Assembly: GCF_001306175.1 (NCBI RefSeq)
Contig: NZ_LGKN01000005.1
Span: forward strand, 372,001 to 436,000
Source of the DNA: Ardenticatena maritima
GTDB lineage: Bacteria; Chloroflexota; Anaerolineae; Ardenticatenales; Ardenticatenaceae
Direction: 5' to 3'
DNA length: 64,000 nucleotides
Below, piece by piece: positions 11,335 through 30,682 of the stretch (positions are counted from its first letter, which is position 1; each line of letters starts with the position of its first letter). A program made the position numbers and the translations under genes. The notes under the pieces were generated by a model, which saw only the letters and a program-made list of their open reading frames with translations, was not told the origin of the DNA and ran no database searches.

Positions 11335-14300
11335 GTTTTTAGCCTACCTATGAGGGGTTGAAACTTGCCACTGAAACGGCGCTTCGCGATTTGTTCCACG
11401 TTTTTAGCCTACCTATGAGGGGTTGAAACCTTCGATCAGCTGTTGGTGGATGGGTGTGGCCTCTGGTTTTTAGCCTACCTATGAGGGGTTGAAACTGCAC
11501 ATGACGACGGGACGCTTGCAATTGCGGTCTCTGTTTTTAGCCTACCTATGAGGGGTTGAAACCTCGTATTCCTTCCCTGGGTTTGGTTTCTTCTTTTGTG
11601 TTTTTAGCCTACCTATGAGGGGTTGAAACTCATTCGTCAAACAAGCCCCATCGCTGCAATTTGCGACGTTTTTAGCCTACCTATGAGGGGTTGAAACTTC
11701 TTTAGTTAGCCCACGTCGCTATCGCCGAAGATGTGTTTTTAGCCTACCTATGAGGGGTTGAAACCTTTCCCCTGAGCAATTTGAAGCCGCAAAACATTCT
11801 AGTTTTTAGCCTACCTATGAGGGGTTGAAACTCAATACAGCGCTGAATTGAAGGTTGACGGTTATGGTACGTTTTTAGCCTACCTATGAGGGGTTGAAAC
11901 AAAGAGACGGCTACCTTCTCTTATTTGCTTCTCTACTCGTTTTTAGCCTACCTATGAGGGGTTGAAACAACGCACCAGCGCCGCGCGGCGGTCGCTCATG
12001 CCCTTGGTTTTTAGCCTACCTATGAGGGGTTGAAACTACCACGCCGCAAACGGCGGCACATACTCAACCAGAACGTTTTTAGCCTACCTATGAGGGGTTG
12101 AAACTTCAAAGCGACAAGGTTTGAAGATGTCGGCAAGTAGTTTTTAGCCTACCTATGAGGGGTTGAAACAAAAAGAAAGGAGAAAAAGGACAATGAAAAA
12201 GAGCGATAGTTTTTAGCCTACCTATGAGGGGTTGAAACTCAAATTAGCAATCGCTAGCCCAAGAAAACTGCCAATGTTTTTAGCCTACCTATGAGGGGTT
12301 GAAACTGCTGACGCCGCGGCGCGTGAGCACGTTCAAGCCAGCGTTTTTAGCCTACCTATGAGGGGTTGAAACCTGACGGGTTCGCCGACCATATATATTC
12401 AAACTATCCGTTTTTAGCCTACCTATGAGGGGTTGAAACTTCAGGCGTACATTGAGTATTGGCTAGAAATTATTGGTTTTTAGCCTACCTATGAGGGGTT
12501 GAAACCAATGTTTGCGGATGAAGCGGCAGAGTTTGAGATGGTCAGGTTTTTAGCCTACCTATGAGGGGTTGAAACTTTTTCGGGAAGGTGTCAACATCTC
12601 GCAAGCGAGTCACAGTTTTTAGCCTACCTATGAGGGGTTGAAACCCAAGAAGTCGTGGTGCCTGGCACCACGACCTACGAAGTTTTTAGCCTACCTATGA
12701 GGGGTTGAAACTCGCCATCACTCACCACCGCATCGCCGTCAATCACCGCGTTTTTAGCCTACCTATGAGGGGTTGAAACGGGTGCTCGGGGGTCGTGCCC
12801 GAGGCGCGTATATTCGTTTTTAGCCTACCTATGAGGGGTTGAAACTAGAAGACATTGATACGGACGTTTCCCAACGCACGCGTTTTTAGCCTACCTATGA
12901 GGGGTTGAAACACCCGCGCAAAGCCGACCCCGTGGGCGTGGACTTGCAGTTTTTAGCCTACCTATGAGGGGTTGAAACTCGAGGTGGAGACGCAAGACAT
13001 GATACATACGCGTTTGTTTTTAGCCTACCTATGAGGGGTTGAAACAATGAACAGAATGGCGCGCGGGTCAATGTAGCCGTCGTTTTTAGCCTACCTATGA
13101 GGGGTTGAAACGTCGGAATCAAATTCGTCGAGACCGTCTTCGAGCATGTTTTTAGCCTACCTATGAGGGGTTGAAACTCGCCCCCTGTAATGTCGTTCCA
13201 CGCGCGCACCCAGGTTTTTAGCCTACCTATGAGGGGTTGAAACCCCAAGAAGGAAAACGAAACCTAAGCATCACCATCGTTTTTAGCCTACCTATGAGGG
13301 GTTGAAACCAGGAAATCGAGGCTGAAAAGGCGGACGCCGGTTTTGTGGTTTTTAGCCTACCTATGAGGGGTTGAAACCGGTTTGGTTGGCGGGCGGGGCG
13401 AGCCCCATGCAAGTTTTTAGCCTACCTATGAGGGGTTGAAACGTTCACGTGGGCGGCGTGCGCGCCCACGATGATAACCGTTTTTAGCCTACCTATGAGG
13501 GGTTGAAACTGCGCGTGGGGTTCACGTGGGCGGCGTGCGCGCCCGTTTTTAGCCTACCTATGAGGGGTTGAAACCCAGAACCCAAGCCGCAAATCAACCC
13601 GGACACGTGTGGTTTTTAGCCTACCTATGAGGGGTTGAAACTAAAGCGGGCGATGTTTCATCTGTGCAGGCAATCGTAGGTTTTTAGCCTACCTATGAGG
13701 GGTTGAAACTAATGGACGGCGCACCTATGCGGCGTGTCCAGGTGGCGTTTTTAGCCTACCTATGAGGGGTTGAAACCGATACGCATCAGTTCAGGCAATT
13801 CCTTCAACAACGGTTTTTAGCCTACCTATGAGGGGTTGAAACAATACGGCGACATGCGGCTACTTGGCCGCATTGTCGTTTTTAGCCTACCTATGAGGGG
13901 TTGAAACCATATTCTATTTTCTCATAAATCTGGCCGCGGTACTCTTGTTTTTAGCCTACCTATGAGGGGTTGAAACCACGTGTGCCAGGTTTTGTTCTAC
14001 TCTTCAACAAAAGTTTTTAGCCTACCTATGAGGGGTTGAAACCGCGCACGCTACACGCAAACTACGCGCAATTACGCGTAGTTTTTAGCCTACCTATGAG
14101 GGGTTGAAACAAGGCGTGCGGTGTTCCACCTGCACGGTTGCGGTGTTGTTTTTAGCCTACCTATGAGGGGTTGAAACTCATATATCCGCAACCGACACCG
14201 AGACGAAGGAGCACCGTTTTTAGCCTACCTATGAGGGGTTGAAACCTACTCCAAAACATGGCTTGTTGCAGCAAGATAGCGGCGTTTTTAGCCTACCTAT

Positions 14301-14919
14301 GAGGGGTTGAAACTTTTTCGTGGACGCCTGTGAGAGCGGGAATAGTGTTCTGTTTTTAGCCTACCTATGAGGGGTTGAAACGAGGTGAGTGTGTGGCTCG
14401 CGCGCATAGTGCTACTGGTTTTTAGCCTACCTATGAGGGGTTGAAACTGCTACTCATCACCCAGCGCGGGTTTTCAATCGGCGTTTTTAGCCTACCTATG
14501 AGGGATTGAAACCGTATTCGAGCATGTCAACTTCTGATTGGTAAAAGGCGCGTTTTTAGCCTACCTATGAGGGATTGAAACTTCGCTACGCGCGTGAGTA
14601 TGCGCGCATGTTGCGTAGTTTTTAGCCTACCTATGAGGGATTGAAACGGGATCAACGTGGCGGTGGCGGACATAGCGCCGGGTGAAGTTTTTAGCCTACC
14701 TATGAGGGATTGAAACAACGCTCTCATCGTCGCCGTCGGACGCCGCACGCACCGTTTTTAGCCTACCTATGAGGGATTGAAACAAATCGAAATGCTACCC
14801 GCGCCTGGTCCAGGCGCGGGGTTTTTAGCCTACCTATGAGGGATTGAAACCCGGTCGGTGCAATTCGCGTTGCGGCCGTCTTTGAAGCCGTTTTTAGCCT
14901 ACCTATGAGGGATTGAAAC
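11335..14919 (+). CRISPR. CRISPR array, 54 repeats of 30 bp and 53 spacers of 35-40 bp
   Basis: The 30-bp repeat begins GTTTTTAGCC and ends GGGTTGAAAC. I count 54 copies starting at 11335, 11400, 11466 and so on to 14890, with a period of 65-70 bp. Repeats 1-47 are identical by eye; repeats 48-54 (from 14483) all carry one change, G to A at position 23, so the last eight bases read ATTGAAAC rather than GTTGAAAC. That eight-base end corresponds to the 5' handle of mature crRNAs in type I and III systems, which, with the leader promoter, sets transcription left to right. No cas gene lies within the window, so the type is unassigned; repeat and spacer length and the GAAAC ending fit type I-A/I-B or III. 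Apparent reading frames inside the array are artefacts of the repeats. Confidence 0.98.
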
Positions 14920-28397: not shown

Positions 28398-29768
28398 CTA
28401 GTTGAGCACAATATCGTCCACTGCAACGGAGTGCGGCGTTGCGCTCATGGCGTCTTCTTCAAGGTCGTATTCGTAGAAGAACTTCTCACCAAAAGCGGGC
28501 TTCAACTGGTCAAGCCAGGTCGCGTGCGGATCAAACTTGGCAAAGAAGGGGCGTCCCACCCATTCAGGCTTGCGCCCTTGCAAGAATTCCAGCACGAACA
28601 CGCGCTCGCCCGCCACACGCGCTGTCCCGACAACGCGCACTTTCCCCGGCCACGCCGACATCGAAGGGCCACGCACGGTACGCGCCACGCCGGAAACCTG
28701 GCGGTAGGCGTCGGCAAAAATGCGCTGTGCGCGCGCCAGCGGCACTTCAAAGTATCCCTTCGGGCCAGTATCACGTTCCACAAACATGTAGTATGGGATC
28801 ATGCCCAGGCGCACGGATTCGCGCCACATGGTCGCCCAGACATCGGGGTCGTCGTTGACGTGGCGAATGAGCGGCGCTTGCGTGCGAATTTCCGCCCCGG
28901 TGTTGCGAATACGGGCAATGGCTTCCTGCACAATGGGGGTCGAAAGTTCGCGCGGATGCGAGAAGTGCGCCATGAACGCCACATGGCGACCGCTGGCGAT
29001 AATCTCTTCAAAAAGCCGCAAAATGTCGTCAGCGTCGGCATCGCTCACATAGCGATACGGCCAGTACGCCAGCGATTTAGTGCCAATGCGAATGGTGCGC
29101 ACATGTTCCAGTTCAGGGCTGAGCAAGGGTTCAATGTAGCGGCGCAAGAGGCTCGCTTTCATTACCATGGGGTCGCCCCCCGTGAAGAGTACGTCCGTCA
29201 CGTCGGGGTGGCGTTTGAGGTATTCAACAAGCAGTTCCACCTGCCGCGATTGGAATTTGAGTTCTTCGATCCCCACAAATTGCGCCCAGCGGAAGCAATA
29301 GGTGCAAAACGCATGGCAGGTTTGCCCCTGCGCCGGGAAGAAGAGGACGGTTTCGCGATATTTATGTTGAATGCCCCACAGCCGCTGCCCATCCATTTCC
29401 GGCACGTTGTGCGTCATTTGCCCTGCGGGGTGCGGGTTCATGCGGAACCGAATTTCGTTGACCAACGTTTGCAGCGCTTGGCGAGAAACCCCATCGCGCA
29501 AGGCGTCACGCACACGTGCGTAGTCCTGTGGGTCAAGCATGCCGCGCTGGGGGAAGGTCAACTGGAAAATGGGGTCGTTGGGAATGTCGCTCCAATCAAT
29601 CAACTGCTCAACAACATACGGGTTCGTGCGGAAGGGGAGCACATGCGCCACAACTTCAATCGCTTCGCGCATTTCGGGGGTAAGCGTATGCCACACGGGA
29701 TGCTTCTTGATAGTGGCGAGCGTCAACGGTTTGTACTGCGTCATTTCATTCGACAAAACCTGCTTCAT
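28398..29768 (-). CDS. KamA-family radical SAM aminomutase (lysine 2,3-aminomutase-like)
   Basis: A 456-residue radical SAM enzyme. The iron-sulfur cluster motif is CHAFCTYCFRW (Cys 151, 155, 158; CxxxCxxC). Further family features are LFTGGDPMVM, IRIGTKSLAYWPYR, and VAFMAHFSHPRE with a conserved His. The N-terminal region WSDIPNDPIFQLTFPQ is typical of lysine/glutamate aminomutases. In lysine 2,3-aminomutase the PLP Lys lies in a GGGGK loop; here the comparable region reads MSAWPGKVRVVG, so K is kept but the Gly-rich loop is not, and the substrate may differ. The start follows AAAGGAGG. A structured RNA lies 50 bp upstream on the same strand. Confidence 0.88.
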   Translation of the reverse strand: MKQVLSNEMTQYKPLTLATIKKHPVWHTLTPEMREAIEVVAHVLPFRTNPYVVEQLIDWSDIPNDPIFQLTFPQRGMLDPQDYARVRDALRDGVSRQALQTLVNEIRFRMNPHPAGQMTHNVPEMDGQRLWGIQHKYRETVLFFPAQGQTCHAFCTYCFRWAQFVGIEELKFQSRQVELLVEYLKRHPDVTDVLFTGGDPMVMKASLLRRYIEPLLSPELEHVRTIRIGTKSLAYWPYRYVSDADADDILRLFEEIIASGRHVAFMAHFSHPRELSTPIVQEAIARIRNTGAEIRTQAPLIRHVNDDPDVWATMWRESVRLGMIPYYMFVERDTGPKGYFEVPLARAQRIFADAYRQVSGVARTVRGPSMSAWPGKVRVVGTARVAGERVFVLEFLQGRKPEWVGRPFFAKFDPHATWLDQLKPAFGEKFFYEYDLEEDAMSATPHSVAVDDIVLN

Positions 29769-29814
29769 TGCAACCTCCTTTCACACAAATAACACCATTT
29801 CTCTCTCCCAAACC

Positions 29815-30051
29815 TTCAGGCACAAACAGGCTAAGGCGGCTCACGCAACGCGTTGCCGCCGCCAGGTGATGCGCCGTTGCTCTTTCATTCAACCATCAAA
29901 TAGGGTGCGGTGGTCTCTTCCAAAAAGAGGCACAGCAGTAGAGAAAACGGCTCGCAGAGTAGGCGGAACAGAGAAAACTGCATGAGAGACCACACGAAAC
30001 GGGCACAACAGGAGTGGCAGTTCTGCAACAGCGCTTCACCTGTTTGTGCAC
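29815..30051 (-). ncRNA. Candidate rod-shaped structured RNA, 6S RNA-like
   Basis: In a 368-bp gap without a gene, the reverse strand can fold into one long nested hairpin. P1: GCACAAACAGG (30049-30039) with CCTGTTTGTGC (29830-29820), 11 bp. P2: GCGCTGTTGC (30034-30025) with GCAACGGCGC (29880-29871), 10 bp including one G-U pair. P3: GTGGTCTCT (29993-29985) with AGAGACCAC (29918-29910), 9 bp. P4: GCAGT (29981-29977) with ACTGC (29939-29935). Between P2 and P3 lies a nearly symmetric internal loop of 31 and 29 nt; the 3' side between P1 and P2 bears a local GC-rich hairpin (GGCGGC/GCCGCC). The P2 mismatch is a wobble only on this strand, and a consensus promoter ends exactly at P1. A closing stem, large central bubble and apical stem is the plan of 6S RNA (ssrS). 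No terminator was seen at the 3' end, so processing or read-through into kamA is possible. An unknown RNA class is the main alternative. Confidence 0.5.
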
Positions 30052-30057
30052 AGTTTC

Positions 30058-30085
30058 ACTATATAGATGAAGCGACGTGTGTCAA
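30058..30085 (-). promoter_or_regulatory. Promoter of the structured RNA
   Basis: Reverse strand: perfect TTGACA (30085-30080), 16-bp spacer, TATAGT (30063-30058). The predicted first nucleotide is about 30051, the base of the P1 stem. Confidence 0.7.
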
Positions 30086-30136
30086 ATAGCCCAAAATGGC
30101 TATACAGGCGTGGCAGACGTCAAAGCGGTCTCTTTG

Positions 30137-30682
30137 TCAGCCCGCTTCTTCTTCACTCTCGAACCACTCCGGCCGCCGCCAGCGCGCCAACGCCCGTAAT
30201 ACCAGGTGCTCGTAGGTTTCCTGCCGCCCCACCAGCCCATTTGTCAGCAAGCCAATCGCGCCCATTTTCTGCTTGGTGTTGTGTTCATCGCTCAGGCGGT
30301 CCATCAGCGTGCCAAGTTCGTGCCCGGCGCGCAATCCTTCAACAACAGCCGGCGGCAACAAAATCAAGCCGCCGCCCGCCCAGCCAACACGCCCATCCCG
30401 ATCGACAATCGCGCACCACGCGCCGGTATACCACTCACCATCGTACTCAAACACACCACCTTCCAGCCCGACACCAAACTCGGCGTTGGGATACGCCGCC
30501 AGTGCCGCTTGCGCCCGATTGCGCGCCCCCCGGCGCGTTTCCGCATGCCCGATTGGCTGAGGAGAGACACCGCTCGGCGCATCCACGGCGCGCACCTCCC
30601 ACGCATCGCCCAGTTTGGCAAACGCCGCCTGAACAGCCGCCACCTTCACCGGATTCCGACTTCCCACCACAACAATCGGCAT
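30137..30682 (-). CDS. DUF84 inosine/xanthosine triphosphatase
   Basis: A 181-residue protein of the YjjX/DUF84 family, which hydrolyses non-canonical purine triphosphates such as ITP and XTP and so cleans the nucleotide pool. Signatures: VVVGSRNPVKVAAVQAAF at the N-terminus, QPIGHAETRRGARNRAQAAL, FGVGLEGGVFEYDGEWY (substrate loop), GGGLILLPPAVVEGL, ELGTLMD and the ending GAIGLLTNGLVGRQETYEHLVLRAL. The ATG at 30682 follows AGGAGGAA. Longer upstream extensions of the frame cross the promoter of the divergent gene and are not real. Confidence 0.9.
   Translation of the reverse strand: MPIVVVGSRNPVKVAAVQAAFAKLGDAWEVRAVDAPSGVSPQPIGHAETRRGARNRAQAALAAYPNAEFGVGLEGGVFEYDGEWYTGAWCAIVDRDGRVGWAGGGLILLPPAVVEGLRAGHELGTLMDRLSDEHNTKQKMGAIGLLTNGLVGRQETYEHLVLRALARWRRPEWFESEEEAG

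Follow-up and report, generated by a model that had tools for sequence, protein, structure and literature searches.

The DNA upstream of a kamA-like gene in Ardenticatena maritima raises the question of whether the rod-shaped RNA predicted there is a 6S RNA, another RNA transcribed on its own, or part of the mRNA of the gene that follows. A sequence-only reading had named the 6S RNA gene (ssrS) or an undescribed structured RNA; 6S RNA is a global regulator. All positions below refer to the window, the whole stretch of 64,000 nucleotides that was analyzed, which belongs to a genome of 3.56 Mb.

Promoter, RNA and gene on the minus strand

The locus is laid out in the direction of transcription as follows:
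30058-30085, minus strand: promoter TTGACA-N16-TATAGT, 11 of 12 consensus matches (one found, 0.1 expected)
29815-30051, minus strand: structured leader RNA of about 237 nt (z = -3.88), with a homologue before the same gene in a second species
29774-29781, minus strand: ribosome-binding site (RBS) AAAGGAGG, assigned by sequence; conserved run TGTGAAAGGAGG
28398-29768, minus strand: KamA-like radical-SAM aminomutase gene (KamA-family profiles, PDB match), putatively controlled by the leader

The promoter that the sequence-only reading had proposed to drive the RNA held up. Promoter, RNA and gene follow in the same order in Ardenticatena sp. (G001; record WFOS01000028), where the promoter reads TTGACA-N17-TATAGT and 18 bases of the -10 region are identical to the window. 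Transcription probably starts near 30051 on the minus strand. The 46 bases between the RNA end (29815) and the start codon (29768) contain the RBS, and conservation with G001 extends into it. A scan of the window gave no terminator-like site in the stretch that separates the RNA from the kamA-like gene. The RNA therefore appears to belong to the kamA-like mRNA, as its 5' leader, and not to be a free RNA. The strand was assigned from the promoter, the downstream RBS and the orientation of the gene because folding energy alone is insufficient; the opposite (plus) strand gives a good fold too (z = -3.18).

An exact copy of the promoter palindrome TTCAnCTATATAGTGAA was not found elsewhere in the genome, which holds one further site with two mismatches. 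With its exact site unique, the palindrome was rejected as an operator common to other genes. Synteny with G001 is lost just upstream of the promoter (window 30098-30137); the DUF84-like neighbor gene lies on a different G001 contig (C75), and the G001 contig carrying the leader (C28) stops 246 bases upstream of the match. Elsewhere, the window holds one or more CRISPR arrays (11335-14919), whose CRISPR-DR2 repeats fall into two classes by score, 43.3 bits and 50.4 bits.

The encoded protein matches KamA-family profiles, including those of lysine and glutamate 2,3-aminomutase, all under their curated cut-offs, and its sole match among solved structures in the PDB is L-lysine 2,3-aminomutase (2A5H). 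Among its relatives in other phyla, many bear the names of marine, soda-lake or halophilic groups (Halomonas, Idiomarina, Pseudoalteromonas, Balneolales). The enzyme may have a beta-amino-acid osmolyte role, which these names would fit.

Structure, conservation and the 6S RNA question

The RNA (30051-29815) has a predicted minimum free energy of -90.6 kcal/mol, whereas its shuffles average -73.3 kcal/mol (z = -3.88), and none of 200 shuffles folded as well. For the G001 RNA alone, the advantage over shuffles is only moderate (z = -1.46). The stems described in the sequence-only reading are present on the minus strand at the coordinates given there, P1 with 11 bp, P2 with 10 bp and P3 with 9 bp, and the one imperfection of P2 is indeed a U-G wobble on that strand. 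Overlooked in that reading, P2 is extended by 7 bp (CAGGUGA/UCACCUG, 30042-30036 with 29869-29863) that compete with the inner part of P1. The elements of the RNA are:
30039-30049, minus strand: shared 5' arm GCACAAACAGG, which can pair with the near arm or form P1; invariant in both species
30025-30042, minus strand: P2 5' arm, CAGGUGA plus GCGCUGUUGC; G001 keeps 16 of 17 pairs
30003-30012, minus strand: near arm CCUGUUGUGC, which pairs with the 5' arm in the alternative hairpin A; all 10 bases and all 10 pairs kept
29985-29993, minus strand: P3 5' arm GUGGUCUCU; a predicted anti-RBS segment when the full-length leader of the window is folded; 8 of 9 pairs kept
29940-29959, minus strand: apical block CUCUGCGAGCCGUUUUCUCU in the P3 apical loop, with 20 identical bases running the longest in the leader by the blastn alignment (MAFFT sets the first bases differently)
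29910-29918, minus strand: P3 3' arm AGAGACCAC; invariant
29863-29880, minus strand: P2 3' arm, GCAACGGCGC plus UCACCUG; 17 of 18 bases identical
29835-29860, minus strand: 3' hairpin P5, GGCGGC...GCCGCC, with a compensatory change (C-G to U-A) and a G-C to G-U change
29820-29830, minus strand: P1 3' arm CCUGUUUGUGC, as found in the window

G001 is the sole relative of the same genus in the collection, and the conservation described here is between two sequences. The leader is 74% identical to that of G001 over 253 aligned bases (75% by the blastn alignment), only slightly above nearby intergenic DNA (69-72%), and third codon positions of the kamA-like gene are 58% identical. Pairing is kept in 10 of 10 inner and 6 of 7 outer pairs of P2, in 8 of 9 pairs of P3 and throughout hairpin A (10/10), and in 7 of 11 pairs of P1. 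Within the arms of P2, P3 and hairpin A, 67 of 69 bases agree between the two species, against 60% identity elsewhere. In a circular-shift test, only the true one of 237 placements reached 67/69, a result that is partly post hoc because the near arm was picked after viewing the alignment. The near arm is invariant within an otherwise variable loop, even though the P2 fold does not use it. Compensatory change, proposed as a check on the DNA upstream of kamA, was seen once, in P5, with only two sequences to compare. Indels of 1, 2, 5 and 8 bases, not multiples of three, argue against a protein-coding explanation of the conservation, and this explanation was rejected.

A covariance search of the class (396 sampled genomes) recovered only the two Ardenticatena copies, and one across the phylum (400 sampled genomes) recovered these two and a chance-level match (E = 0.62). 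No homologues of the leader were found in plasmid and viral collections, and a model search with filters off at 16 loci of orthologous genes gave chance-level scores only. We conclude that the structured 5' leader is real and conserved at genus level.

The identification as 6S RNA failed. No family reached its gathering threshold in a full Rfam scan of the region (29700-30250, up to E = 10), and the 6S model itself gave no match there within that limit; the sole match at E ≤ 10 was to an animal microRNA model on the other strand (E = 8.3), which we attribute to chance. Another contig of the genome carries a 6S gene (51.8 bits, above the cut-off), a probable second one is also present in the genome (33.5 bits, below the cut-off but aligned end to end), and G001 has the same pair of matches. 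The 6S reading was rejected on these grounds. The two matches lie at G000:C4:337188-337363 and G000:C5:648395-648571, and two are also found in each of G001, G002, G004 and G005, which suggests a second, paralogous 6S RNA in the Ardenticatenaceae.

A free-standing 6S-like small RNA, that is, a rod whose bubble binds RNA polymerase, would be consistent with the rod shape in the window, the strong promoter of its own and a length near 235 nt. It is nevertheless highly improbable, given the 6S genes elsewhere, the lack of a 6S match here and of a terminator-like site after the RNA, and the lack of conservation of bubble size and P1. The 31/29-nt internal loop exists in the window, but its sizes differ in G001 and its symmetry is lost; a conserved alternative arm lies on one side of the bubble, and the other side has indels. 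The 31-nt side, whose size had been given correctly, contains CCUGUUGUGC (30012-30003), an alternative partner of the 5' arm that the sequence-only reading had overlooked. Likewise, P1 closes the rod in the window, but 4 of its 11 pairs are broken in G001, so that a 6S-type closing stem around a large central bubble was not found in both species. The 6S-like look stems from bubble symmetry and P1, precisely the parts that are not conserved, and the lesson is that calling a 6S RNA takes more than a rod and a promoter. The other option of the sequence-only reading, an undescribed structured RNA with its own promoter, is supported by the z-score, the lack of a credible Rfam match and the G001 homologue.

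A possible switch and its alternatives

As expected of a leader in general, the RNA stands after a promoter and before the same gene in two species, so that synteny is conserved. We propose, with a probability of about 0.5, that it acts in cis at the front of the kamA-like mRNA as a riboswitch-like 5' leader. The promoter motif, conservation, synteny and both sets of complementary arms are read from the DNA, and the two states and the masking of the RBS are computed. In the RNA alone, P2 is favored in both species (predicted probability 0.95-1.0). With the RBS included, hairpin A is predicted to be favored in both (0.99 at 37 °C) and the RBS to be paired; the preference for hairpin A persists at 55 and 60 °C, although in the window it drops to 0.70 at 60 °C. 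Two predicted states that depend on the RBS are the pattern expected of a translational switch. In the predicted full-length fold of the window, the GAGG within the RBS is paired with the P3 5' arm GUGGUCUCU. The masking segments are not the same in the window and G001, and 34% of shuffled leaders mask the RBS as well in the window, against 1.3% in G001.

In the proposed mechanism, RNA polymerase would start at about 30051 and produce a leader of about 283 nt, whose 5' segment has two conserved partners in competition. Pairing with the distant arm would give the P2/P3 state, in which the apical core is displayed and the RBS is more available. Pairing with the near arm would give the hairpin A state, in which the freed P3 and loop sequences would mask the RBS. 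A signal bound at the conserved core could then select the state and thereby set the amount of enzyme. For this model, we infer both a ligand and the direction of switching.

The same conservation data would also fit a cis-acting leader bound by a protein, through autoregulation or a global RNA-binding protein, instead of a small molecule, and the conserved apical block with its pyrimidine-rich tract could be the protein site. We regard this as rather unlikely, with no candidate protein at hand, although sequence alone cannot separate it from a riboswitch. Less weight still is given to an ordinary long 5' UTR, in which promoter or operator DNA and recent divergence, not RNA function, would account for the conservation. 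The 69-72% identity of the adjoining intergenic DNA and the sample of two species speak for such a UTR, but conservation coincides with complementary arms, third codon positions of the kamA-like gene are only 58% identical, and the folding z is -3.9, which together make it an unlikely explanation. Similarly improbable, in our view, is a static H-type pseudoknot without switching, in which P3 is inserted and the inner 10 bp of P2 are present at the same time as a near hairpin of 6 bp (GCACAA/UUGUGC). The two helices draw on separate parts of the 5' arm (30049-30044 and 30034-30025) and could coexist in a geometry that is itself conjectural, but the outer helix parts compete for CAGG (30042-30039); the folding programs used treat nested structures only.

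Leaders of related genes and known systems

If the proposed riboswitch-like leader does sense a small molecule, it might represent a new, narrowly distributed riboswitch class that responds to an osmotic or ionic signal, or to the substrate or product of the enzyme, and that controls, in thermophilic Chloroflexota from the sea, an enzyme for a beta-amino-acid osmolyte, a suggestion that we make tentatively. Osmotic or salt status is our leading guess for the signal, by analogy, because a c-di-AMP riboswitch precedes the gene of a Dehalococcoidia relative: it lies 96 nt before the start codon of the orthologous KamA-like gene of locus L106 (L106:2225-2372). A second one, in Dehalococcoidia locus L076 (L076:1563-1711), is separated from the gene by about 790 nt that include an ORF of 174 aa. 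No other riboswitch turned up when 40 loci with related genes were scanned twice more against Rfam. Na+ and c-di-AMP riboswitches in leaders are known to control aminomutase genes; a Na+-I riboswitch precedes ablA (lysine 2,3-aminomutase), and in Dehalobacter it stands in tandem with a c-di-AMP riboswitch, with a terminator stem after each aptamer (PMC9337991). Not all genes compared here are orthologues of the published ones, and the parallel is thus a lead and not a proof.

An AGAGTGC...GCACTCT hairpin followed by a T-run lies between promoter-like sequence and the KamA-like gene in four Anaerolineae/Chloroflexota orthologues (L028:1773-1796, L030 about 2368-2394, L032:817-839 and L033:2364-2384). 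The terminator scan recognizes it in three of the four loci and misses L030. These sequences suggest that attenuation may operate there. The leaders of L028 and L029 also carry a GTTCCAC...TGGAAC-type inverted repeat just after the promoter, a possible operator.

Among known systems, 6S RNA (RF00013) resembles the Ardenticatena RNA in its long rod with an internal loop and its strong promoter, but the leader matches no 6S model, its bubble is not conserved, and it is apparently joined to an mRNA. The Na+-I riboswitch (DUF1646 motif) is known to control lysine 2,3-aminomutase genes; the Ardenticatena leader shows no terminator like those of the published tandem aptamers, and no match to this riboswitch was found in the region up to E = 10, assuming that the motif is among the 4227 Rfam families. 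The c-di-AMP riboswitch (ydaO/yuaA leader, RF00379) is, like our RNA, a structured leader directly before an orthologous KamA-like gene (L106), but the Ardenticatena leader does not match its aptamer consensus, and RF00379 has no match at E ≤ 1 in the region or anywhere in the genome. If it is a riboswitch, the leader would be an orphan class at a gene position served in other bacteria by c-di-AMP or Na+ riboswitches, and would illustrate how distinct RNA sensors can take on a single task in osmotic adaptation.
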